From assembly GCA_963169745.1 (NCBI GenBank), contig CAUJCU010000019.1, positions 1-64,000 on the forward strand: 64,000 bases of DNA. Direction: 5' to 3'. Made by a program: the position numbers and the translations under genes. The stretch's first letter is position 1, and every line of letters starts with the position of its first letter. The notes beneath the pieces were generated by a model. The model made no database searches. It was given only the letters and a program-made list of their open reading frames with translations, and was not told where the DNA came from. Source of the DNA: Bacteroidota bacterium (lineage in GTDB: Bacteria; Bacteroidota; Bacteroidia; UBA4408). Of the stretch, positions 24 to 18,483 are shown piece after piece.

Positions 24-129
24 AACAAAGTTTAAGACGTCAATGTCGAGTTGCGAAAAATAATTAACAAGACCAACGAAGTGTTAGTTTTTTTGTCGGG
101 CGTTTAATGCTTGTACATTTACAATGACC

Positions 130-260
130 GCTAACGGTTCGGGTATTGCCGCAGTGGGGGATTTTTAGCACCGAAGTTCAATAGAAATACCACACTTCAA
201 ATATAGCATTAATGTTCAATAGAATTACGTCAACCCCCATTGCGGCAATACCTTGTTGGC
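130..260 (-). repeat. attC-like site A (left end of array)
   Basis: The outer cores are GCTAAC at 130-135 and GTTGGC at 255-260. The arms continue as an imperfect stem: the left arm carries GGGTATTGCCGCAGTGGGGG and the right arm its near-perfect complement ending at about 253. The length of about 131 bp is within the usual attC range. The middle is unpaired AT-rich sequence. Confidence 0.7.
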
Positions 261-421
261 AGATGCCCTTCTTTCGTCTGCCGTGTCGGGTTGTTCTGTC
301 AATGAGTTTATCTGTGTCAGGTTGCAAGATGTTGTCCTGTTAGGGTGTTGCAGTGCGGTGGCAAAAAATTAAAAACACGAAGCGAGGGGGAAAGAAAAAA
401 TAAAATTCTTCTTGGGCAGGA

Positions 422-491
422 AAAAGCACACTCTTTTTGCAGCTTGGCTTTGTGTGTCGGCTTGTAGCGGCTGCAAAATGTGTGTGCTTTT
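422..491. repeat. Stem-loop copy 1, conserved loop element
   Basis: The arms GCACACTCTTTTTGCAGC (426-443) and GCTGCAAAATGTGTGTGC (470-487) pair with two T-T mismatches around a C-G pair, extended by an A-run and a T-run outside. The loop contains TTGGCTTTGTGTGTCGG (444-460). A second stem-loop at 15122-15187 has the same loop word and the same internal mismatch but different paired arm sequences. I do not recognise the family. Confidence 0.65.
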
Positions 492-512
492 ATGGGTTGG
501 AATTTAATTCAC

Positions 513-887
513 TCAAAAATTCAAAATCCTGTTTGGTTGTAATGGAAAGTCATCTGTTACCAACGCTGAAACTGTCTGTCCGTTGTAGTTGAACATTACT
601 TTGTATCGGGCTTTCACATCAACAATTTCATTCTGTCTGTAAGGCTTTGTCGTGAAAAGATTGATGCTGCATTTTCCGTCTGTTACTTCTGCATAAGAAA
701 TTGAAAATAGCCCTGAACATTTAGTTACGGTCAGGTCGTGAAGCTGAACTAACGAATCAGCAAATACCGACTGCTTTTCATACAAATCGCAAAGAGTAAT
801 GTTGGGCTGAAACAGATTTGCAAAAGGGTTTGTATTGCAACTTGTCAAAGCGGTAAAAAGTGTAAGTGTAAAAAATACTTTTCTCAT
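513..887 (-). CDS. Small lipoprotein, function unknown
   Basis: This is a 124-residue protein with a short hydrophobic N-terminus ending in TSC-N near residue 17, typical of a lipobox, so it is probably a lipoprotein. The remainder has scattered cysteines and a mid-section resembling a small beta domain, but matches no family I can name. It follows a terminator-like hairpin at 897-942 and has no clear promoter in the few bases between, so its expression may depend on read-through from the genes to the right. It is the last gene of the large cassette-like unit before the left attC-like site. Confidence 0.6.
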   Translation of the reverse strand: MRKVFFTLTLFTALTSCNTNPFANLFQPNITLCDLYEKQSVFADSLVQLHDLTVTKCSGLFSISYAEVTDGKCSINLFTTKPYRQNEIVDVKARYKVMFNYNGQTVSALVTDDFPLQPNRILNF

Positions 888-896
888 TTTATATCC

Positions 897-942
897 TTAA
901 AAAATCCGATGTCAGACCTGTTGGAAAGTCCGACATCGGATT
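897..942 (-). terminator. Rho-independent terminator-like hairpin after the vWA gene
   Basis: AATCCGATGTC (903-913) pairs with GACATCGGATT (932-942), an 11-bp perfect stem. Read on the minus strand the stem is followed by a run of T. It lies 8 bases beyond the stop codon of the von Willebrand A lipoprotein gene, so it probably ends that transcript. Confidence 0.7.
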
Positions 943-949
943 CCGTTTG

Positions 950-1801
950 TCAATTAGATGCCGTCATGTAGTCCGTAATTTCCTTTCGGCTGTCGTAGGC
1001 ATAGCCCTTTAATTCCGCTCCGCTTTCGTGAAAGAAGTTTTGCCAAAAGATTTTGCAGTTTTCTATCTGTTTGTTGGCGTAAGTTCCCGCTTCCATTGTT
1101 GAAGTAGCTCCGTAAATCAAAATTTTGCAGCCCGATAAATCAGGGATTTTATTCAGCTTGTGCAGTTCGTCCAGTTTGGCGTTTATCTTTTCCTCGTTGT
1201 ATTTTCCGAATTGGGTAAAGTCAAAAGTTTTTTCCCTGTTCTCGTTTACCATATCCGAAAAAATGATGATGCAATTTTCGTAGGTAAAATTGTCTTTTCC
1301 CTGTGCGTTGTTCAGGATTTCGTCCTTTGTGTTTGTGTAGCTCTTTTCGTGAGTAAGCAAAGGCGTTGCCTCGTTCAAGGCATTGATGATGTCCGTGTAG
1401 TTGCCGCAATTTTTGCGTTCTTCCCGCTTGGTAAGAGTAGTGGTTCGCAAAAGCGTTTGAATGGAATCCGTCAGGAAGCGTTTTATTCTCGCTTTGGTGG
1501 AATCTTCGGCATTGTTCAAGCCGTCTGCTTTGTTGGTAAAGTCCATTGCAGCCAAGTCAATCGTAAAAATCCTTTCAGATTGGGTCATGCTGCATTCGTC
1601 AATGAATTGAATGGTCAGGCGGTCATATCTGCCCATGTTTGGCAAAATGGTTTGTTGTGCAATGCCTATGTATTTGTTTAGGGTTGCCTCGCTGATTGTT
1701 TTGGAATTGTCAATCAGCAGAATGTAGTTCTTCCGCTTGGAAGAAGAGCAACTGGTCATAAAGACCAGTGCTCCTGTTAAAATGATGATGAGATTTCTCA
1801 T
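950..1801 (-). CDS. Lipoprotein with a von Willebrand factor A domain
   Basis: The frame opens upstream at 1855, but the ATG at 1801 gives a clean lipoprotein signal (MRNLIIILTGALVFMTSC) and lies just past the stop of the upstream gene, so this start is preferred (283 residues). After the lipobox comes a vWA-like fold: a hydrophobic strand followed by DNSKT, which fits the metal-binding DxSxS/T motif; a later NYTD threonine; and an IIIFSDM strand with the third acidic residue. Such domains bind protein partners through a metal ion. It forms a pair with the membrane protein at 1821-2837. Partner and role are unknown. Confidence 0.7.
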   Translation of the reverse strand: MRNLIIILTGALVFMTSCSSSKRKNYILLIDNSKTISEATLNKYIGIAQQTILPNMGRYDRLTIQFIDECSMTQSERIFTIDLAAMDFTNKADGLNNAEDSTKARIKRFLTDSIQTLLRTTTLTKREERKNCGNYTDIINALNEATPLLTHEKSYTNTKDEILNNAQGKDNFTYENCIIIFSDMVNENREKTFDFTQFGKYNEEKINAKLDELHKLNKIPDLSGCKILIYGATSTMEAGTYANKQIENCKIFWQNFFHESGAELKGYAYDSRKEITDYMTASN

Positions 1802-1820
1802 GTTTGTTAGTATTAAATGG

Positions 1821-2837
1821 TTAGTGTGCAAAAAGTTCTTTAATAGATTCGTCATGCCCGTTCTTTTGGGCAGGTGTGATAATCAGTTGCGGTGTTATCG
1901 CTTCCTGTTGAATCGCCTCTTTCTTGTAGCGTTCAATGGCTTCTCTGATGAAGCTGTCCTGTGTTTGGCAGAAATGCCCTGCAAGATTTTCTTCCGCTAT
2001 GCCCTGCTTGCGGTTGTAGTTCTCCTTGTAGGTTTTAAATTCCTGATGATAAGCCCAGTTGTCTTCGCATTCTTTTTTGAAATGCGTTTCCATGCGTTGC
2101 TCGTTGGTCTTAATCTTATTGGTCTTGTTCGCAATAAGTCGGTTCAGGCGGTCAATCCTGCGGGTGTTCTTGTAAGGGCTGATGTATCTGCGTTTTTCGT
2201 AGGCATAGTAGCCCGCAATAATCGGAATAAGCATTCCCGCAATCATCATAGCGGTTGCAATAATGCCGTTGCCTTCGCCTCCCTCAATCTGAATGCCTCT
2301 GACCTTGCAGATGTAGTAAGTAAATGCTTCGTAGCCGATAGCCATAATGAAAAGGGCAATCAGTTTTCCCCAGTTGCGGGGTTCTTTATGTTCGCCTTTG
2401 TAGGGGCGTTCATGCAATAATTGGAAGAAAAGATTCTCAAAGAGGGCTATTGCCACCCATGTAATGAGAATAGCGAAGATGCTCTGTGCTGCTATTGCCA
2501 GCCAGCCGTTAAAGTTGAATAGGGCTTTTGCCGCAAAGAAGTTAAAAAATGCTTCTCCGATGATGCAAATAAAAAGAATGATGTTGTAGCTGCGGATTTT
2601 GCCCTGATAGGCGGGAAATTCGTCCGCATTGATAGTAGGGTGCAAAAGCCGTTCATTTAGTTCGGTTGTCAGCTCCTTGATTTTTTCCGCCAGTTGCTTG
2701 TTCTGCCTTTTGAGCTTGGCGGCAAGTTTCAGTGTGCTGTGAAGCAGCCAGTTCATGCACTGTTGTGCAAATGCTTTGATTCCTTCGTGGTTCTTGAACC
2801 ACTGGCGATACCATGCCATAAAGAATAGATACCTCAT
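1821..2837 (-). CDS. Membrane protein with coiled-coil ends, function unknown
   Basis: This 338-residue protein starts with a basic amphipathic region and a Lys/Gln/Glu-rich segment (about residues 36-65) likely to be coiled coil. Hydrophobic segments follow at about 83-103, 110-135, 158-175 and 190-210, then a charged C-terminal tail of about 120 residues. It precedes the vWA lipoprotein with 19 bases between, so the two may form an envelope complex. A TACTTTTG promoter element lies about 140 bases upstream at 2978-2985. Paired proteins of this sort occur in Bacteroidota accessory regions, but I cannot name this family. Confidence 0.6.
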   Translation of the reverse strand: MRYLFFMAWYRQWFKNHEGIKAFAQQCMNWLLHSTLKLAAKLKRQNKQLAEKIKELTTELNERLLHPTINADEFPAYQGKIRSYNIILFICIIGEAFFNFFAAKALFNFNGWLAIAAQSIFAILITWVAIALFENLFFQLLHERPYKGEHKEPRNWGKLIALFIMAIGYEAFTYYICKVRGIQIEGGEGNGIIATAMMIAGMLIPIIAGYYAYEKRRYISPYKNTRRIDRLNRLIANKTNKIKTNEQRMETHFKKECEDNWAYHQEFKTYKENYNRKQGIAEENLAGHFCQTQDSFIREAIERYKKEAIQQEAITPQLIITPAQKNGHDESIKELFAH

Positions 2838-3150
2838 GTTGCTTGTTTTTAAAAGTGATTAAATTTTACCCTACTTACTGAAACTTTGTCCGGGCTTTTT
2901 AATGGCTCATGTCCACCCTTACAAAGTTTAGAATCACTTTAAACTCAATTCAACTTTCAGTATCTCAAAGAACGAAACAAAAGTAGCGGGTTGCAAATTA
3001 CCCCTGCTTACCCTGTTGTATTTTATTTTTCAATTTCTGTTTCACGATGCAAACTTATTCAGCTTTGAGTTATCCACAATTACTCCGTTTACGATTTCAT
3101 TCTGTATTGATTTCACGATGCAAATATCTATGTTCTGCACTTACCCGCAA
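2838..3150. other. Intergenic region with direct repeats and a DnaA-box-like word
   Basis: No gene is supported here. It contains a minus-strand promoter-like element at 2978-2985 and two related copies of a roughly 47-bp word spaced by 70 bases (3040-3086 and 3110-3157). The first copy includes TTATCCACA at 3070-3078, which matches the DnaA-box consensus, but it stands alone. Confidence 0.6.
2978..2985 (-). promoter_or_regulatory. TAnnTTTG promoter element for the membrane/vWA pair
   Basis: The minus strand reads TACTTTTG. The element is about 140 bases upstream of the ATG at 2837, implying a long leader if it is used. Confidence 0.4.
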
Positions 3151-3157
3151 TTACTCC
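3040..3157. repeat. Two diverged direct repeats, about 47 bp each
   Basis: TTTCACGATGCAAA followed after about 17 bases by TTAyCCrCAATTACTCC occurs twice, at 3040-3086 and 3110-3157. The second copy overlaps the stop codon of the 529-residue receiver protein gene. It could be a protein-binding repeat or a remnant of a duplication at the operon end. Confidence 0.6.
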
Positions 3158-4740
3158 AAAAGATTATGACTGATAAGCCATTCTTTTTCTTCGGGCAAGA
3201 ATTTCCCTTGCTGCACTTTATTTATTTCAATACAAAGTTTATAGGCATTTTGTGTTCCACTGTTCGGCATTGATTTTTTAATACTCGGTGCAAACATTCT
3301 CTTGTAAATTTCTTCGGAATATTCGCTAATGGTTTCTTTTGAAATTCTTTTTCCAATATCTGTTCTGCTAAACCAAAAAGCCAACCAAATTCGCCTGTAA
3401 ATAAGTATCGGTTCTAATATCAAAACTTTTGTGGGAACTGTAATGCCAAATTCCGTTGTCAGCGTATTGTTTTTTGGTGTTTCTTGCAGATACTTCCAAA
3501 TTTCGTTTGCGGTTGTTGTAATTTTTGAAAGGTAGCTGTCCCTTTCTTCCGAATTCCAAATCTCAATGTATTGCTGCTTCAATGTTTTTAACGGCTCTCC
3601 GTTTTTTAAAATTTCTTTTGTCCATTGGGCTGAATCATCGGGTAACGATGCTATTAACTGAACTGCCTGTTCACATGATTCATTCAATACATCGGCAAAT
3701 ACTTTCCATTGGTCTGTCGTTAAAAGATTTTCTTTCTTAAACATCGTAAAGCGAACGCCCATGAGATTGCGTATGTGATGCACAACAAAATCCGCTTGCG
3801 ATGTAAGTGCAAACAATGCTCTTATGCCGTTTTTAGAAGCAAAATCAAGTATTTCATAACCTTGCAACGTCTGCCAATGATTTGGGCTTCCCTGTTCATA
3901 CAAACGCCAATCGGAAACGACTGCAATTATATTGTTTGCCGTATCTTTTTTTATTTCTTCAATCGCTTGTTCTGCCCGATTTGCCTGTATTATTTCAAAG
4001 TCGGCAGCAAGATTATATACTATATTTTTTAGTTCGTCTGCCTTATCATCAATTACCAAAATCTTGTGCTTTGACTTATTGATTTCGCTTACAGGTTTTC
4101 CCGAAGCGGTTAATTGCAAATTGCAAAGCGTTATGAATTGTTGCTTGTCTGAAAAGAAACCGTTGCTGTCTTTATCTTTTGTCCGTTGTTGCAGCTTTTG
4201 GGCAAACTCATTCAACTGAATGGCTTGCTTTTGATAAGAAGAAAGATAAGGGCTGATGCTTGAAATAACTGCATTTACATCTACACCGAATTTTAAATCG
4301 TGATTCAGCTTGTCAATTACAATTCCTTTCAGGTCGCAAAGCATGGTTGCCACATCATGCAAAGCTGCATTGCTTAACGGTTCAATGCTTTCAGCCAGTT
4401 TGCTTAAATCTTCTTCTTTAAACGGTGCTTCCAAAAATGCAGAACCTCTGCCGAAAAGAATTTTGTATTTAATATCCTTTTCACTTCTCTTTTCAAAATA
4501 GTTTTTTGGAACAGGGCTGTAAAAAATAATTGGTGCTTTGGATTTCTTTTCTGTTCTGATAAGGTTGGCTACATCAAAACCGTAAAAGCTACTTAGCTTA
4601 TTTTCATTCCAATTCAAACTTGCATTAAGCAGCCAGACTGCATTTGTTGGCTCATTCAGTTCCAACAATTCCTGATGTGATGAAATTTTTCTCCACCCAT
4701 TAAGTTCGGCTGTGTTCTTATTGCAAACGTGAATTATCAT
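3151..4740 (-). CDS. Receiver-domain protein, last gene of the ten-gene operon
   Basis: This 529-residue protein has a poorly conserved receiver-like N-terminus (about 1-110, alternating strands ending near IIFYSP) followed by a helical linker and a better receiver domain at about 224-340. In the second domain the acidic pair DD231-232, phosphoacceptor D277 (VVSDWRL), T313 (ALTSQ) and a lysine at 335-336 (FKK) are all present, so it could be phosphorylated. The last 190 residues are mostly helical with no DNA-binding motif I recognise. The architecture parallels its neighbour at 4743-6635. No histidine kinase is encoded nearby. The start lies 2 bases after the upstream stop, indicating translational coupling. 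Confidence 0.65.
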   Translation of the reverse strand: MIIHVCNKNTAELNGWRKISSHQELLELNEPTNAVWLLNASLNWNENKLSSFYGFDVANLIRTEKKSKAPIIFYSPVPKNYFEKRSEKDIKYKILFGRGSAFLEAPFKEEDLSKLAESIEPLSNAALHDVATMLCDLKGIVIDKLNHDLKFGVDVNAVISSISPYLSSYQKQAIQLNEFAQKLQQRTKDKDSNGFFSDKQQFITLCNLQLTASGKPVSEINKSKHKILVIDDKADELKNIVYNLAADFEIIQANRAEQAIEEIKKDTANNIIAVVSDWRLYEQGSPNHWQTLQGYEILDFASKNGIRALFALTSQADFVVHHIRNLMGVRFTMFKKENLLTTDQWKVFADVLNESCEQAVQLIASLPDDSAQWTKEILKNGEPLKTLKQQYIEIWNSEERDSYLSKITTTANEIWKYLQETPKNNTLTTEFGITVPTKVLILEPILIYRRIWLAFWFSRTDIGKRISKETISEYSEEIYKRMFAPSIKKSMPNSGTQNAYKLCIEINKVQQGKFLPEEKEWLISHNLLE

Positions 4741-4742
4741 AT

Positions 4743-6635
4743 CTAAACTGGAATAGAAATTTTAAGTGGGTCAGTTGGTTTTATTTCGGCTGTATTCGTC
4801 TTCAACTCTTTTTTGAATGTAGCACCAAGCCAACCATTCAATTTGGAATCATCTTTTGTTTGGTTTATTACTTCCTCAATTACGCCTTTGTTTACAATAG
4901 TTTTATGTAGTTTGAAAATTCTTGTCTTCATCGCTTCTCTGCCGTAATTACAATTCTTGGAATGTTCTGAATTGTAAAATTGAAGATAAAGCCATAACAA
5001 GCCACACGGGAAAATATAATAATTGTCCTCCGAAATTTTCTTGTGAGTAGCAATAAAGCCGTCAGGAAAAGCGTCTTGAAAATCTCGCAACGTATTACAA
5101 TTAATCAGAGCATAAAGCAGGTAGTCAAGACAAATGAATACATCATTCAATTCAAAATATTCATTGTCGCTTGCATGGCTTGCAGAATTTCTTACTTGCA
5201 ATAGAAAGTTTGTTAAGTAAGAAAATGATTTTGCTCCTGACCTTACGCCTAACATTTCGGCAATTTTGCCTAAGTTGTTGCAAATGCTTGTAGCTAAAAA
5301 TCGCTCCGATTCGTTGGCATCTCCTTCGTAATCGGTTTCACTGTTTATTTGCCGCCTGATTGCAAACCATGAAGATTCAAGTATTGAAACAACATCTCCT
5401 TTCGTGAAATTGCAATACTCACTTCTTTCATTATTGACAGGAGCAAAAAGCATTTTTTCTCTGCCATCTGTTGTAATTGGAACAATAAGTGTTGCATCGT
5501 ATTCAGGTGAATACCACCATTTGTTTGTGTTGATGTTTTTTACTTTCTGAATATTTTCCCATAAATCCTGCAACTTTTTGTAGATGTTATTTTTGCTGAC
5601 TGTTTCTATCGTCTTTTTAAATAACAGGTAGTTATCTCTTTTTTCTATTGCAGTTGCATTAGGTCTTGTGTCTTTCACAATCCAGTCGTCAACTCCTTGT
5701 TGGTCAAAAATTTTATAGTAAGGAATTTTATTGCTTGATGTGTGCATAATGTAAGGAATACCTTTTCCCTTGTCGGTTGCTTTTACACTATGAAATAAAT
5801 TGAACCCGCTTATTTGTTCAATACTTTCTTGGTTCATCCATTTGGCGGGTTCGTGGTTTTCGTTCAGGTAAAAATCTGAAAGAATAATATTGCTTGGGTT
5901 ACTCTTATTGCTCAAACTGTTTTTTACTTCTTTCAAAACATTTCCGTTAGCAAGGGCTTTTCTGAACTCGGTTTGGTTTTTGTATGGCAGATGAAGTAAA
6001 GCATTTTCGTTAAATATTTCCGAAAATGTTGCTTCCCATTCGTTGCTTTGGTCGTCTATGAAAAGGATTTTCTTTTTACCGACAGCCACTTTTGCAGTTG
6101 TAGGATTTTGGCTTCGGTGTATTCCATAACCTGAAAGTAAGTTTTCAGATGCGTTGTTGAAAACAGGCTTGTTGTATTGCTCAAATTTCGTTTGCACTTG
6201 TTTCCATGTAAAGGGAACTTCAAGAAATTCAAGTTGTGCCAAAACAAGGTTTTCGAGTTTTTTCCTGATTAGGGGTTCGGAATTATTGGCATAGGGAGAA
6301 AAGAAAATCACTTGCAATTTTTCACTGGAATCTTTGTATATGTTTAGCAACTCCCTGTAAATAGCAACACCTGCCTGTGTTTGAAACGGAGTTTCTTTTT
6401 CGTATTCCAATTTATTTTTTTTCCTATAAATCGCACAATGAACATTTATTAAATAGCAATGAATATTTTCGTTTTTCAGAATATCATCGTCTTTTACTAT
6501 CTCTAACTCCTCTTTTACGCTCCCAATATTTTTATTAAATGTTGAAACAGACCAAGCCAGTTGATTTTTCTGAAAATCAGCATCGGCAATATTTGCACTA
6601 TCCCATTCTAAATTGTCTATTACAACTATTTTCAT
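4743..6635 (-). CDS. Large receiver-domain protein
   Basis: The open frame extends to 6713, but the ATG at 6635 starts with MKIVVID, the first strand of a receiver-like fold, and lies 5 bases beyond the upstream stop, so this start is chosen (630 residues). Residues 1-145 form a degenerate receiver-like domain. A second receiver at about 187-330 retains DD194-195, D254 (LSDFYL), T299 (MHTSS) and K321 (WIVKD). The remaining 300 residues are largely helical and unrecognised. The same order, degenerate receiver then intact receiver then helical tail, occurs in the protein encoded at 3151-4740, so the two may be partners or paralogues. Confidence 0.65.
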   Translation of the reverse strand: MKIVVIDNLEWDSANIADADFQKNQLAWSVSTFNKNIGSVKEELEIVKDDDILKNENIHCYLINVHCAIYRKKNKLEYEKETPFQTQAGVAIYRELLNIYKDSSEKLQVIFFSPYANNSEPLIRKKLENLVLAQLEFLEVPFTWKQVQTKFEQYNKPVFNNASENLLSGYGIHRSQNPTTAKVAVGKKKILFIDDQSNEWEATFSEIFNENALLHLPYKNQTEFRKALANGNVLKEVKNSLSNKSNPSNIILSDFYLNENHEPAKWMNQESIEQISGFNLFHSVKATDKGKGIPYIMHTSSNKIPYYKIFDQQGVDDWIVKDTRPNATAIEKRDNYLLFKKTIETVSKNNIYKKLQDLWENIQKVKNINTNKWWYSPEYDATLIVPITTDGREKMLFAPVNNERSEYCNFTKGDVVSILESSWFAIRRQINSETDYEGDANESERFLATSICNNLGKIAEMLGVRSGAKSFSYLTNFLLQVRNSASHASDNEYFELNDVFICLDYLLYALINCNTLRDFQDAFPDGFIATHKKISEDNYYIFPCGLLWLYLQFYNSEHSKNCNYGREAMKTRIFKLHKTIVNKGVIEEVINQTKDDSKLNGWLGATFKKELKTNTAEIKPTDPLKISIPV

Positions 6636-14050: not shown

Positions 14051-15052
14051 TTATTCTTCTTCACTGTCTAATTCCAAACGAACCCTGTCCGCTTCAATGA
14101 GTTCTTTCAGTTCAGTTTCGTTTGGTAGGTAAAGGCGGTATTTGCTGGCAAACAGTTTTTCGTTTTCCGTCATTACGGAATATTTTACAATGGTTTCGTC
14201 TTTTTCAGTGCAAAGGATAATGCCGATAGTCGGGTTGTCGTCAGCACCTTTCTTTAAATCATTATACATTCTTACATACATATCCATTTGCCCAATGGCT
14301 TCGTGGGTAAGTCGGTGCGTTTTCAAATCAATCAGCACAAAACATTTCAGGTAATAGTTGTAAAAAACGAGGTCAATATAAAAGTCGGAAGTGTCGGTAA
14401 CGATGTGCTGCTGTCGTGCCACAAACGCAAAGCCCTTGCCCAATTCCATAAGGAACTGTTGCAGATGCGTAATCAAAGCGGTTTCAATTTTGGTTTCGGT
14501 GTGCTTGGTGTCTGTCGGCAATCCAAGAAATTCAAAAATGTATGGGTCTTTGATGAAATGCGATGTTTCGGGTTGTTCGGTTGGGTTTTCGGGCAGTTTT
14601 AGCAAACGTCCCAAATACTGGCTGTCAATGTTGCGTTGCAGGGTTCGGGTGTTCCAATTTCCCTCAATGGAATGAGAAATATACTGTTGTCTAAGTTGTT
14701 GATTGTCAAGACGACTTATGATTCGGTAATGTGTCCAACTCAATTCTTGACGCACTGCGTCAAATATTGGAAATGCCAAGTAGAACTTTCGCATATTGGT
14801 AAGGTTCGTAAAGTCAAAGCCTTTTCCAAATTCAAGCGTTAGTTGTGTGGCGAAGTTTTTTAAAACGGCTTTACCGTATTCCGCACGGATTTTTCCTTGT
14901 TGTTCGTCCTCAATAATCAGTTTGCCGATTTCCCAATACATTTTCAGCAGAATGGTGTTATTGCTTCGGTAAGCGGTAGCCCTTGCTTGCACAATAACTT
15001 GTGCAATGGCATTGTATAAATTTTGATTTGTATGCTGTATGTTATCACTCAT
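14051..15052 (-). CDS. YhcG-type PD-(D/E)XK nuclease-domain protein (DUF1016)
   Basis: The 333-residue protein shows the N-terminal DUF1016 region (LLKMYWEIGKLIIEDEQ, then LTNMRKFYLAFP and LSWTHYRIISRL) and a C-terminal PD-(D/E)XK core: DFYIDLVFYN followed by VLIDLKTHRLTHEAIGQMDMY. This core includes the catalytic Asp and the D-x-K pair. These proteins are widespread accessory nucleases linked to mobile DNA and restriction-type loci, with roles that are poorly defined. It lies upstream of the transporter operon in the same direction, with a 46-base gap, and close to the right end of the large cassette-like unit. Confidence 0.85.
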   Translation of the reverse strand: MSDNIQHTNQNLYNAIAQVIVQARATAYRSNNTILLKMYWEIGKLIIEDEQQGKIRAEYGKAVLKNFATQLTLEFGKGFDFTNLTNMRKFYLAFPIFDAVRQELSWTHYRIISRLDNQQLRQQYISHSIEGNWNTRTLQRNIDSQYLGRLLKLPENPTEQPETSHFIKDPYIFEFLGLPTDTKHTETKIETALITHLQQFLMELGKGFAFVARQQHIVTDTSDFYIDLVFYNYYLKCFVLIDLKTHRLTHEAIGQMDMYVRMYNDLKKGADDNPTIGIILCTEKDETIVKYSVMTENEKLFASKYRLYLPNETELKELIEADRVRLELDSEEE

Positions 15053-15121: not shown

Positions 15122-15187
15122 ATTTGGCTCTTTTGGTTTTGCGAAGCGTTGGCTTTGTGTGTCGGGGCAAAACCAAATGTGCCAAAT
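15122..15187. repeat. Stem-loop copy 2, conserved loop element
   Basis: A 21-base left arm (15122-15142) pairs with 15167-15187, with T-T mismatches around one C-G pair in the middle. The loop contains TTGGCTTTGTGTGTCGG (15149-15165), identical to copy 1 at 444-460. The arm sequences differ from copy 1 (ATTTGGC and GGTTTTGC instead of GCACAC and GCAGC), yet remain complementary. That points to selection on structure. Confidence 0.65.
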
Positions 15188-15353
15188 GCGGGCAGGCAAG
15201 AATTTTATTTTTTCTGCGGGTGGGGTGTTTTTAATTTTTTTGAAGCGTTGCCTGTGTGTCGGCAAAGTGTCGTGTCAGTGAGTTAGTGTGTCCTGCTGCC
15301 GTGTTAGTTTTGGTCTGTCAGTTGATAGTAGAACTGTCGCTCGTAGGGTTTCT

Positions 15354-15483
15354 GCCAACGGTAAATTGTATGAGTAGTGGCAGATTGCGTGGTACTTTCC
15401 TATCAAACCGCTACGCAGTTTGAGCGGGCTACAAACCTTGATATTTACCACTTCCCCTGCCATTACTTATACAAAATGTTGGC
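15354..15483 (-). repeat. attC-like site B (after the Sul-type gene)
   Basis: The outer cores are GCCAAC at 15354-15359 and GTTGGC at 15478-15483. The arms pair over about 25 bases with small bulges: the left arm includes TTGTATGAGTAGTGGCAG, the right CTGCCATTACTTATACAA. It lies about 50 bases after the stop of the Sul-type gene. Confidence 0.7.
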
Positions 15484-15532
15484 TACCGTAATTTCATATA
15501 AATCAAACTTTATAATAATTGTCAAGTAATAT

Positions 15533-16345
15533 TTACACACCGGTATTCAATACTTCAAGTACTTTTAATGCATCATTTAAAGCCCTAACATCATGTGTCC
15601 GGATATAATCTACACCCATATAACTTAAATAAATCTCTGTTGCCAAAGTAGCAGGTGTTCGTTCATTGACTTCTCTCCCGACAATGGCTCCTAAAAAGGA
15701 TTTTCGGGAAACTGAAATAAGAATTGGTAAATTGAAGTATCCTTTCAATTGAGAAATATTTTTTAAAACATGTATTGAAGATTCTGGATTAGAACCTAAA
15801 AAGAATCCCATTCCTGGGTCTAAAATAATTCTATCGGATGAAATGCCTGAATTTTGAATCGATTTGATACGTTGTGAAAAGAAATCGATTATTTCATTAA
15901 ATACTTTTTCGGGTTTAGTTTCGATAACCGTCGCTGGTCCAAAACGCTGAACCGAATGCATTACGATGAGTTTACAATCTGATTTTGCAATTTCGGGATA
16001 AATTTCAGGATGGGAAAATCCTTGAATGTCGTTTAAATACTGGACGTTTCTATTTAAAAAATATTGTTGGACAGTAGATTTAAAGGAATCAATGGAAACA
16101 GGAATATTTTTAGTAAGCAAGTAATCGGCTACTGGTTTTAAACGATCAATCTCTTCTTGAGGCTTTACTTCTTTGGAGGAAGGATTACTGGAAGCAGCTC
16201 CTAAATCAATTATACTGGCACCATCTTCAACCAGTTTGAGAGATTTTTCCAAAGCTTTACCGTAATCCAGATAAAGCCCTCCGTCAGAAAAACTATCTTC
16301 AGTAATATTTACAATCCCTAATATTTTTGGCTTATGAAATTTCAT
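15533..16345 (-). CDS. Sul-type dihydropteroate synthase in a cassette-like unit
   Basis: The enzyme class joins pABA to dihydropterin pyrophosphate in folate synthesis. At 270 residues it has all core parts: GIVNIT (10-15), NDIQGF (105-110), MHS (129-131), LDPG (175-178), SRKS (213-216) and RTHD (249-252). Several diagnostic places differ from chromosomal FolP and agree, as I recall those sequences, with the mobile sulfonamide-insensitive enzymes Sul1 and Sul2: DLGAASSNP (47-55) instead of the FolP GGESTRPG form, YLNDIQGF with YPEIAKSDC following, LDPGMGFFL (175-183) instead of the GFGK form, and SRKSFLGA (213-220). It stands alone between two attC-like sites with no folate neighbours. Whether it confers sulfonamide insensitivity is inference; an unusual native FolP remains possible. 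Confidence 0.8.
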   Translation of the reverse strand: MKFHKPKILGIVNITEDSFSDGGLYLDYGKALEKSLKLVEDGASIIDLGAASSNPSSKEVKPQEEIDRLKPVADYLLTKNIPVSIDSFKSTVQQYFLNRNVQYLNDIQGFSHPEIYPEIAKSDCKLIVMHSVQRFGPATVIETKPEKVFNEIIDFFSQRIKSIQNSGISSDRIILDPGMGFFLGSNPESSIHVLKNISQLKGYFNLPILISVSRKSFLGAIVGREVNERTPATLATEIYLSYMGVDYIRTHDVRALNDALKVLEVLNTGV

Positions 16346-16473
16346 AGGTTTTTAAAATTTTGTCTAAATAATTGTAGTTTAATTATATATAATCTGATAA
16401 TCGTTTTATTTTCCAACTGCCATCTTAGTGGCTATCCTATTACCTCCATCATTTATTATACTCTCTTTATTTG

Positions 16474-16481
16474 TATCTTTG
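16474..16481 (+). promoter_or_regulatory. Plus-strand TAnnTTTG element inside the Sul unit
   Basis: TATCTTTG at 16474-16481 matches the Bacteroidota -7 box but points rightwards, against all genes in the array. A transcript would enter the attC-like site at 16514 and run antisense to the GyrI-like gene. It may be chance in AT-rich DNA. Confidence 0.3.
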
Positions 16482-16513
16482 ATAGCAAATGTCAATTCAA
16501 TCTGATTATGGTA

Positions 16514-16646
16514 GCCAACGGTTTCGGGCTTTGCGTTCGGGCGGGTTTCGGAGCACAAAGTTTCAATTTTTTACTAATGTTCATTAGAAGCACAAAGCTA
16601 CAAGTTTCCACGTCAGCCCGCCTGACGCAAAACCCGTGTTAGTGGC
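16514..16646 (-). repeat. attC-like site C (after the GyrI-like gene)
   Basis: Cores GCCAAC (16514-16519) and GTTAGTGGC (16638-16646) bound an imperfect stem with GGGCTTTGCGTTCGGGCGGG on the left and its near complement CCCGCCTGACGCAAAACCC on the right. It ends 8 bases before the stop codon of the GyrI-like gene, the position expected for an attC. Confidence 0.7.
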
Positions 16647-16654
16647 TGGTGTTT

Positions 16655-17131
16655 CTATTTCGTTTTTATTGGTATCCAAATTTCTTCTTTTGATGTAGGG
16701 TCATTGTTTTTGTATTTGTCGCCCAACACTTCAAAATGCGGTCTGTCGTCCAAAACGTAGTCCGAACTTGGCAACCACGTACCCAAAATGTATTGAAAAA
16801 TTGAATTGTCTGTGCTTAAACCTTTGTAATCAAAAACTGCATAAAGTCCGCTTGGCAAAACAAAAGTTTCCATTTCGTTTGGCACATTTTCAAAGTCTGA
16901 AACTTCAACTGTCGCCCAACGTTCAAATTCGTTTGTCGGCTTAAAGTCTGCAAAATGTGTTGGCTTGTAAACAACCATTGAAATTAAATCACTCGTCAAA
17001 TTGTTTGTGATTTCTTTTCGTCTAGGTGTAAAACTTTGCCAAAGTTCGCCAATTTTGTAATTAGCAAAACTCATTGTTAGTCGCTTTCCGACTAATTTCT
17101 TTTCGTTTGATGTTTCAATTCTTGGTGTCAT
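16655..17131 (-). CDS. GyrI-like small-molecule-binding domain protein
   Basis: This is a 158-residue stand-alone domain with the GyrI-like/AraC effector-binding pattern: an opening strand and helix (KKLVGKRLTMSFANYKIGELWQSF), a middle ATVEVSDFENVPNEMETFVLPSGLYAVFDYKG, and the closing helix-strand ILGTWLPSSDYVLDDRPHFEVLGDKY ending in an EEIWIPI strand. GyrI (SbmC) protects DNA gyrase from certain toxins, but the superfamily also holds many unrelated small-molecule binders, so a gyrase role is not proven. Its ATG overlaps the stop of the pentapeptide-repeat gene by 4 bases. Confidence 0.75.
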   Translation of the reverse strand: MTPRIETSNEKKLVGKRLTMSFANYKIGELWQSFTPRRKEITNNLTSDLISMVVYKPTHFADFKPTNEFERWATVEVSDFENVPNEMETFVLPSGLYAVFDYKGLSTDNSIFQYILGTWLPSSDYVLDDRPHFEVLGDKYKNNDPTSKEEIWIPIKTK

Positions 17132-17691
17132 TTTTCAATGTCAATATCGTATTTGTCTAAAAGTCCTGAAACGCCCAAAATAGAAAATTTTGCTTTCTTA
17201 ATTCGGTTAATTTCTGGGTCAATGGAATAATTGTAAGAAGTCCGAAAGTCGGCTTTTTCAAGTGTCGTATGGTCAAAAACGGCTTGTGTCAAATTGCAGT
17301 TGTCAAACACGGAACTTGTCAAGTCGGCTTCTGCAAAGTCAGTTTCTTGTAACTGCGAATTTTTAAAAACTGTCTTTTTGATTTTTGTCTTGTAAAATGA
17401 AGAATGGTTGAGTTGGCAACCGTCAAACGAAAAAGAAAGCCCAAACTCGTTGCAGGTGTCAAACCGAAGCCCCAACATTTTGCTGTCTTTGAATTTTACG
17501 TCCCGAAACGATGTCTTGTTGAGTTTCGTCAAACTGAAATTACAACCGTTAAATGTGCAGTCTATAAACTTAAATTCTGAAAAGTCGCTGTCCGCAAGGT
17601 TGCAGTTGTTGAAAATGCAGCTTTCGTATTCACCTTTTGTCAGCGTGTCGTTTCGGTCAAAAGTTTTGTCTTGTATGTATGTTTCTGTCAT
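17128..17691 (-). CDS. Pentapeptide-repeat protein of Qnr/MfpA-like layout
   Basis: The frame extends to 17760, but that start lies within the attC-like site. The ATG at 17691 begins the recognisable protein (187 residues). From residue 15 onward it consists of five-residue repeats with central Phe/Leu, such as CIFNNCNLADSDFSEF and TDFAEADLTSSVFDNCNL, which build a right-handed beta helix. A break in the middle and a helical hydrophobic C-terminus (SGLLDKYDI) resemble the dimer-forming end of Qnr and MfpA, which mimic DNA and shield gyrase from quinolones. The repeat fold is clear; the gyrase role is inference, supported by the coupled GyrI-like gene. Confidence 0.75.
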   Translation of the reverse strand: MTETYIQDKTFDRNDTLTKGEYESCIFNNCNLADSDFSEFKFIDCTFNGCNFSLTKLNKTSFRDVKFKDSKMLGLRFDTCNEFGLSFSFDGCQLNHSSFYKTKIKKTVFKNSQLQETDFAEADLTSSVFDNCNLTQAVFDHTTLEKADFRTSYNYSIDPEINRIKKAKFSILGVSGLLDKYDIDIEK

Positions 17692-17715
17692 TTGGAACGG
17701 TATCTTATTACACTT

Positions 17716-17852
17716 GCCACTAACGTTTTGCAGATTTGCGATGGGCGGGATTTTTACCACTGAACTTTATGCGGAGCACAAAACTTTCGACTACCACTAA
17801 ACTGTCTGCGGAGCACGAAACCCCGCCTATTGCAAATGTGCTGTTAGCTGCC
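17716..17852 (-). repeat. attC-like site D (after the secreted protein gene)
   Basis: Cores GCCACTAAC (17716-17724) and GTTAGCTGCC (17843-17852) enclose an imperfect stem with GATTTGCGATGGGCGGG on the left and CCCGCCTATTGCAAAT on the right. It ends 7 bases before the stop codon of the 207-residue gene. Confidence 0.7.
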
Positions 17853-17859
17853 GTATTTT

Positions 17860-18483
17860 TCACTTCAGTTTGTCAACCGTGAATGTTAGTCGTTTATTTT
17901 TTGTTGATTGATAAACGAATTTGTCTTCAGTGAACATTAATATTTTGAAGTCTTTTTGACTTGTACCAAACATTTTGTCGTGGTAAAGTGTAAGTACATC
18001 TCCGTCAATTTTCCAAGTTCCTTTTGATGAAGTCCCATTCAATCTTACCATTTTAAAATCACCTGTTTCAAACAGCCAAAATTCACTTTCTTCGTCTTTC
18101 CAATGTCCTTGTAAGTTTTGACGTGTCGCTTTATTTTCTGCAACTTTAACCGGCTCGGGCTTTTTTTCTTCAACTATAGGTTTGTTAAGGTCGGCACCAA
18201 TATTTTTTGCACATTGGATTATTGTCGCACTTTTTATTCGTTTTAGTTCTGCGTCTATTTTTGCTTGATAGTCGTCTTTGTTGTATTTAGCAGTTATTTC
18301 GTCCAAGTAGCAAAGGCTGATTGTTTCTCGTTGGTCTTGACTGAGAGACTTATAGTCTGTCGTCAAATGCGCTAAACACTCCTCGTAAATTAAATTTCTG
18401 TCGCTTTTACCCCAAGTATTTGTTTGTCCAAACACTATTAGGTTTGCTGAAATTAAAGTCGTTGTCAAAATGATTTTTTTCAT
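17860..18483 (-). CDS. Secreted protein with a lipocalin-like C-terminal domain
   Basis: This 207-residue protein has an N-terminal signal peptide (KKIILTTTLISANLIVFGQ). The first half is helical with several cysteines (C34, C56 and near C93). A Lys/Glu/Pro-rich linker leads to about 85 residues starting LQGHWKDEESEFWLF that look like a small beta-barrel of the lipocalin-like type: a W near the start, a GTWKIDGDVLTL turn, and repeating strands. It is the first unit of the cassette-like array, 110 bases after the array-edge promoter. Function unknown. Confidence 0.65.
   Translation of the reverse strand: MKKIILTTTLISANLIVFGQTNTWGKSDRNLIYEECLAHLTTDYKSLSQDQRETISLCYLDEITAKYNKDDYQAKIDAELKRIKSATIIQCAKNIGADLNKPIVEEKKPEPVKVAENKATRQNLQGHWKDEESEFWLFETGDFKMVRLNGTSSKGTWKIDGDVLTLYHDKMFGTSQKDFKILMFTEDKFVYQSTKNKRLTFTVDKLK

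Follow-up and report, generated by a model that had tools for sequence, protein, structure and literature searches.

Sul1 and Sul2 are additional dihydropteroate synthases (DHPS) that carry the Sul motif and have spread with mobile elements, and Sul3 is a plasmid-borne, sulfonamide-resistant DHPS. Mutation has identified the phenylalanine of the Sul motif as essential for resistance and its leucine as a contributor (PMC10328974). In chromosomal genes the motif has been reported only for Rhodobiaceae and Leptospiraceae (PMC6335563), where the enzyme (FolP*) is the housekeeping DHPS. Complete integrons are rare in Bacteroidetes (IntegronFinder 2.0; PMC9024848), and in Riemerella anatipestifer an aph(3')-IVb cassette with an attC-like 3' end is inserted without homology (PMC13148043). 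The gene described here, found in a 64,000-nucleotide stretch of a Bacteroidota genome (hereafter the window), shares features with each of these systems. Like Sul1 and Sul2 it has the Sul motif and constitutes a second, mobile DHPS, but its product is only 46–49% identical to them and lies on a separate branch of the tree. It resembles Sul3 in the motif and belongs to its sister clade, although it scores under the curated Sul3 cut-off; moreover, Sul3 is borne on plasmids, whereas genes of the window type reside on attC-type cassettes of Bacteroidota and were not found on plasmids. As in FolP*, the Sul motif occurs in a chromosomal gene, but one that appears to be an acquired extra copy in a cassette. 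With integron cassettes and the Riemerella unit it shares the combination of one gene with one folded attC-like site, joining at GTT and insertion without flanking homology. Classical integrons, however, have an IntI with the IntI patch, whereas the related sul arrays are headed by a patchless IntI-like recombinase in the same orientation as the cassettes. Overall, with a probability of about 0.86, we regard the gene as a horizontally acquired second Sul-type DHPS carried on a single-gene integron cassette (Table 1).

Table 1. Features of the sul cassette and its surroundings. Positions are those of the window unless a locus (L) is named.
Feature	Position	Strand	Remarks
Sul-type dihydropteroate synthase (allele A)	15533..16345	-	270 aa; ATG at 16345, stop codon end at 15533
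Sul motif, codons L175-N186 (LDPGMGFFLGSN), two-residue insertion	15788..15823	-	alignment; PMC10328974
F181 codon	15803-15805	-	Sul motif
L183 codon	15797-15799	-	Sul motif
Whole mobile unit (cassette), 1164 bp	15357..16520	-	100% identical in L022 and within L023
Cassette leader, GTTGGCTACC to start codon	16346..16520	-	unit comparison
attC-like site of the sul cassette	15351..15485	-	100.5 bits; training site
attC-like site of the preceding cassette	16511..16645	-	113.6 bits; training site
attC-like site of the cassette before the preceding one	17716..17850	-	model R1
Further attC-like site, away from the array	127-262	-	97.3 bits; outside training set
YhcG-type PDDEXK nuclease, unit next after the sul cassette	14051..15052	-	no attC-like site found behind
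Cass2/GyrI-like protein, preceding cassette	16655..17131	-	PF14526, PF06445
Pentapeptide-repeat protein, preceding cassette	17128..17760	-	no NCBIfam (Qnr) match
Lipocalin-like protein, first cassette of the small array	17860..18483	-	PF13648, marginal
IntI-like recombinases without IntI patch	L025 2332-3366; L026 6523-7716; L030 505-1572; L196 13856-15031; L227-L246; L160		

An earlier, sequence-only reading of the window had recognized a Sul-type DHPS from the motifs DLGAASSNP, YLNDIQGF, YPEIAKSDC, LDPGMGFFL and SRKSFLGA, all of which are present in the open reading frame, and the Sul motif, the NCBIfam scores and the position in the tree bear this assignment out. The same reading had seen agreement with Sul1 and Sul2; based on NCBIfam scores, however, the nearest named form is Sul3. 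The protein scored 345.7 bits with the Sul3 model (cut-off 475), 268.7 with the generic DHPS model (162.6), 265 with Sul2 (575), 260.5 with Sul1 (600) and 113.5 with Sul4 (600), such that only the generic cut-off was reached. A PDB sequence search gave the same order (Sul3, 330 bits; Sul1, 255; Sul2, 248; ordinary FolPs, at most 148), the best match among PLSDB plasmids was sul3 (59% protein identity over the full length), and a search of viral contigs returned no relatives. Going by sequence, the protein adds a new member to the Sul group, Sul3-like by every test run and, by the curated cut-offs, distinct from Sul1, Sul2, Sul3 and Sul4; novelty was judged against the open-licence literature of PubMed Central, and either the gene or the integron class discussed below may have been described before.

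Alignment with Sul1, Sul2, Sul3 and the FolP of the host placed DPGMGFFLGSNPE of the window protein opposite DPGFGF--GKSVE of FolP. Within this insertion, F181, the first phenylalanine of GMGFFL, aligned with F178 of Sul1, F179 of Sul2 and F177 of Sul3, and L183 aligned with L180, L181 and L179, respectively. The AlphaFold model of the window protein (pLDDT 89.5) superimposed on Sul3 (8scd) with an rmsd of 1.1 Å, and every Sul structure ranked above every FolP structure in comparisons with it. Given F181 and L183 and the mutational data (PMC10328974), the enzyme is expected to be insensitive to sulfonamides: the two-residue insertion would place F181 in the pABA pocket and exclude the drug, while dihydropteroate would still be made from DHPP and pABA as by any DHPS. 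Such an enzyme would keep folate synthesis going while the FolP of the host is blocked.

Phylogenetic analysis separated Sul-type enzymes from ordinary FolP with support of 100/100, also when Leptospirales were widely sampled, and placed the window protein outside ordinary FolP. Together with a second allele (allele B) and two relatives found outside cassettes, it formed a clade (100/99) whose sister (98/94) comprised Sul3, a rumen metagenome-assembled genome (MAG; L033), a Prevotellaceae MAG (L036) and a Paludibacteraceae MAG (L031). The two clades were joined with support of 96/93, or 93/89 with Leptospirales widely sampled. The suggestion that the gene might be an ancestor of the mobile sul genes is not borne out: it shares an ancestor with Sul3 and has itself moved recently as a cassette gene; judged from the tree, it is a mobile Sul enzyme that is sister to Sul3 and not the ancestor of Sul1 or Sul2. 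The trees also lean towards the hypothesis that sul3 arose in Bacteroidales instead of Leptospiraceae, although a grouping of Sul3 with two Leptospirales sequences was not rejected by the AU test (p 0.19). The presence of chromosomal Bacteroidales enzymes among the nearest relatives of Sul3 makes the origin of sul3 testable again.

Chromosomal Sul-type DHPS genes of Bacteroidales were observed in L031 (8001-8798), L036 (7995-8801, beside recG) and L162-L165, all grouping with Sul3 in the trees. In the family of L031, 4 of 61 genomes, including that of L036, had a Sul-type enzyme as the only match to the query, and in most of the Leptospirales genomes searched the Sul-type enzyme was the only DHPS. 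Among the matches listed, the closest relative of plasmid Sul3 was L033 (1777-2568), on a contig of 3 kb; the MAG, from water-buffalo rumen, has another DHPS as well. A further Sul-type DHPS (L043) was found in a MAG named Klebsiella pneumoniae and groups with Myxococcota and environmental sequences; the name looks wrong.

The host genome (2.99 Mb, 99.96% complete, 0.03% contaminated) contains the Sul-type gene, a separate ordinary folP (G000:C22:18430-19149) and a pterin-binding domain within a 1248-residue frame on contig C2, which from its size we read as metH. The window gene is therefore not the sole DHPS gene of its genome, and, as had been noted from the sequence, neither folate genes nor cdaA are adjacent to it. 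A search of 59 relatives, including three congeners, found no Sul-type copy; the best match in any of them was 38%, and only the ordinary DHPS form occurred, so the gene was most likely acquired. A separate ordinary folP was likewise present in nine of the first ten carrier genomes checked. The sequence downstream of bshC differed in all relatives, and an empty insertion site giving a clean before/after comparison was not found among them.

The same 1164-bp unit occurs with 100% DNA identity in Lewinella sp. W8 (L022) and in the MAG Bacteroidia 5_bin.51 (L023). The flanks upstream of it are unrelated among the three loci, the cassette downstream of it is common to L022 and L023 and absent from the window, and the ordinary FolPs of the three hosts are only 43–50% identical. 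Identity over 1164 bp between unrelated flanks in another genome is more than chance would give. Read in the direction of the gene, the unit opens with GTTGGCTACC, closes with AATTTACC and has a further GTT behind it. The first bases of its attC, GGTAGCCAAC, are the perfect complement of those at the start of the unit, as expected for an excised circular cassette. These features, together with the single gene, the one attC, the GTT ends and the recurrence of the unit between different flanks, are those of an integron cassette, and the ends of the unit are the limits of that cassette. The initial description of a gene standing alone between two attC-like sites with matching private ends is thus confirmed. 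The gene has moved recently between unrelated hosts among distant Bacteroidota and is presumably expressed in its present host; a promoter scan of the leader gave no signal above shuffled sequences, in a scan that does not cover Bacteroidota promoters.

Allele B encodes an enzyme 76% identical to that of allele A and lies in its own 1303-bp unit, which starts at GTT (GTTGGGCGC) and is followed by another GTT. It was found in at least seven Bacteroidota and Ignavibacteriota loci: L025 (Paenimyroides aquimaris), L026, L027, L028, L030, L032, where the frame is shortened by a one-base shift, and L196, where it lies inside a single-contig genome of 2.84 Mb (G215). The units are 98.7–99.9% identical among these carriers. 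Leaders and tails of the two alleles are no more similar than shuffled sequence, suggesting that the alleles were probably packed into cassettes independently. Comparison of their coding sequences (dN 0.136, dS 1.07, dN/dS about 0.13) indicates purifying selection. The NCBIfam models of Sul1–4 name neither allele. Neither was found in PLSDB plasmids, where the best match was sul3 with 65% DNA identity, and a megablast search of E. coli genomes gave none. Carrier counts from the genome scan are lower bounds; in an evenly drawn sample of the phylum, 4 of 395 genomes had the gene. Outside cassettes there are at least two relatives, in a Treponema MAG (L024, 83%) and in Propionispora (L029, 74%). 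The gene of L024 (2989-3801) is situated between a transposase-like fragment and an apparently broken nucleotidyltransferase gene.

A Sul-type DHPS could have been kept for a metabolic reason other than resistance, as a back-up folate enzyme or for a different level of pABA, and be borne on a cassette by chance. No recognized resistance gene was found among the neighbours in the window array, and, among the genomes searched, several of Bacteroidales and most of Leptospirales rely on a Sul-type enzyme as their sole DHPS, both of which are in keeping with such a role. The carriers, however, already have FolP, and the two alleles, probably packaged independently, travel with tet(X), erm(F), catB and aadS, which makes this explanation unlikely. 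In Lewinella sp. W8 the sul cassette heads the array, and behind it are CatB (391.9 bits, cut-off 350; opposite reading direction), Tet(X) twice (861.7 bits for the first copy, cut-off 750), a DHFR nearest to DfrA36 (250.9 bits, under the cut-off of 360) and AadS (518.6 bits, cut-off 450). Paenimyroides aquimaris (L025) has Tet(X), AadS, an AAC(3)-I-like protein under its cut-off and Erm(F) (587.7 bits, cut-off 575), and in L030 tetracycline-efflux-like and Qac-like transporters, both under their cut-offs, flank the sul gene. If the cassette enzyme resists sulfonamides, a sul gene linked to tet(X), erm(F), catB and aadS is moving among distant Bacteroidota and Ignavibacteriota, and surveys keyed to Sul1–4 would not name it.

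The two Tet(X) proteins of L022 (11066-12232 and 14561-15727) are identical within one cassette array, and between them a WGR-like piece is fused in frame to the DfrA36-like DHFR. The pentapeptide-repeat neighbour in the window was considered as a Qnr protein and rejected, having no NCBIfam match.

The attC-like site of the sul cassette folded better than all of 200 dinucleotide shuffles (z -3.27). The model of such sites (R1) was built from ten training sites and has 22 base pairs, 17 of them changed on both sides, with AAC and GTT invariant; because folded cassette ends had been selected for training, covariation is partly built in, and sites on which the model was not trained carry more weight. 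Among these are the one at 127-262 of the window, the fourth there beside the three of the array, and sites directly upstream of sul in L023, L025, L028 and L032. On a 9.4-kb contig of the host genome (L150, G000:C12), seven short hairpins at 445-4960 also scored with R1; they lie on the strand opposite phage-like genes and were rejected as cassettes.

The cassette would move by site-specific recombination at its folded attC-like site and be joined at GTT, most likely through a tyrosine recombinase of Bacteroidota. In L025, L026, L030 and L196 such a recombinase stands at the head of the array and shares its reading direction with the cassettes; in L026, 98 bp separate its stop codon from the start of the sul cassette. 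These recombinases are closer to IntI (about 30%) than to Xer and have the catalytic residues, but not the IntI patch, which is present in the true IntI of G064. Of 148 genomes sampled from the phylum, 52 have a member of the family. In 21 of its loci (323 kb) R1 found 50 attC-like sites, one reverse-strand shadow being left out. All 50 lay on the recombinase strand and 3' of the recombinase. Sequence on that side is available for 19 of the loci, of which 16 have sites, and there were no R1 sites in six loci without the family (L004, L129, L138-L141). Right after the recombinase stop codon, 11 of 23 loci have the motif ATATAA...AGTT (0.007 expected in each), which was found by inspecting these same 23 loci. 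The sul cassette of L027 is itself attached to this attI-like motif, at the junction TTATATAAACGA/GTT. The related loci thus have the layout of an integron-like platform, in which a recombinase precedes the array, attC-like sites are confined to one side of the recombinase and an attI-like motif is present. Only the genome of L027, among ten carrier genomes, has an IntI over the TIGR02249 cut-off. The host genome has no match over that cut-off; the recombinase family is represented in it once, on contig C16, with no attC-like sites alongside.

No recombinase was found near the window array and the Treponema relative lies outside a cassette, as might be the case had the unit been spread by an insertion sequence, by homologous recombination between arrays or by natural transformation with end-joining, instead of by an integron-type recombinase. 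We nevertheless consider such a route improbable: the limits of the unit fall exactly at GTT in every carrier, between different flanks; the sul units lie mostly right behind an attC-like site or the attI-like motif; and the attC-like-ended cassette of Riemerella was inserted free of homology (PMC13148043). Identical DNA in unrelated genomes is also a classic sign of contamination, but an assembly or binning artefact is very improbable, given the core genes around the array on a contig of 162.8 kb, the completeness and low contamination of the assembly, the different flanks in each carrier and the single-contig genome containing allele B. That the gene is the ordinary housekeeping FolP of this lineage, as its chromosomal location and match to the generic DHPS model would allow, is hardly tenable in view of the separate folP, the fully supported split in the tree and the ordinary form being the only one in relatives.

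Returning to cassette movement by recombination, the array anatomy leads us to propose, as the somewhat likelier account, that the sul cassette belongs to a widespread and distinct integron class of Bacteroidota and Ignavibacteriota. Its members would have a patchless IntI-like integrase read in the cassette direction, an attI-like site within about 100 bp after the integrase stop, and cassettes with tet(X), aadS, catB, erm(F) and the Sul3-like sul; with current tools, most of these arrays would come out as clusters without an integrase. The cassettes, in which kin of Sul3 circulate through the phylum, point to a little-noticed integron system in Bacteroidota, and the anatomy of the arrays offers a candidate integrase and attI for the Riemerella cassettes, which insert without a known recombinase.

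Beside the YhcG-type nuclease gene, the window also contains a 21-nt inverted repeat (90%) with a 24-nt loop (15122-15187), which does not match the attC-like model. A stretch 86% similar to it is present in L028 (145-214).
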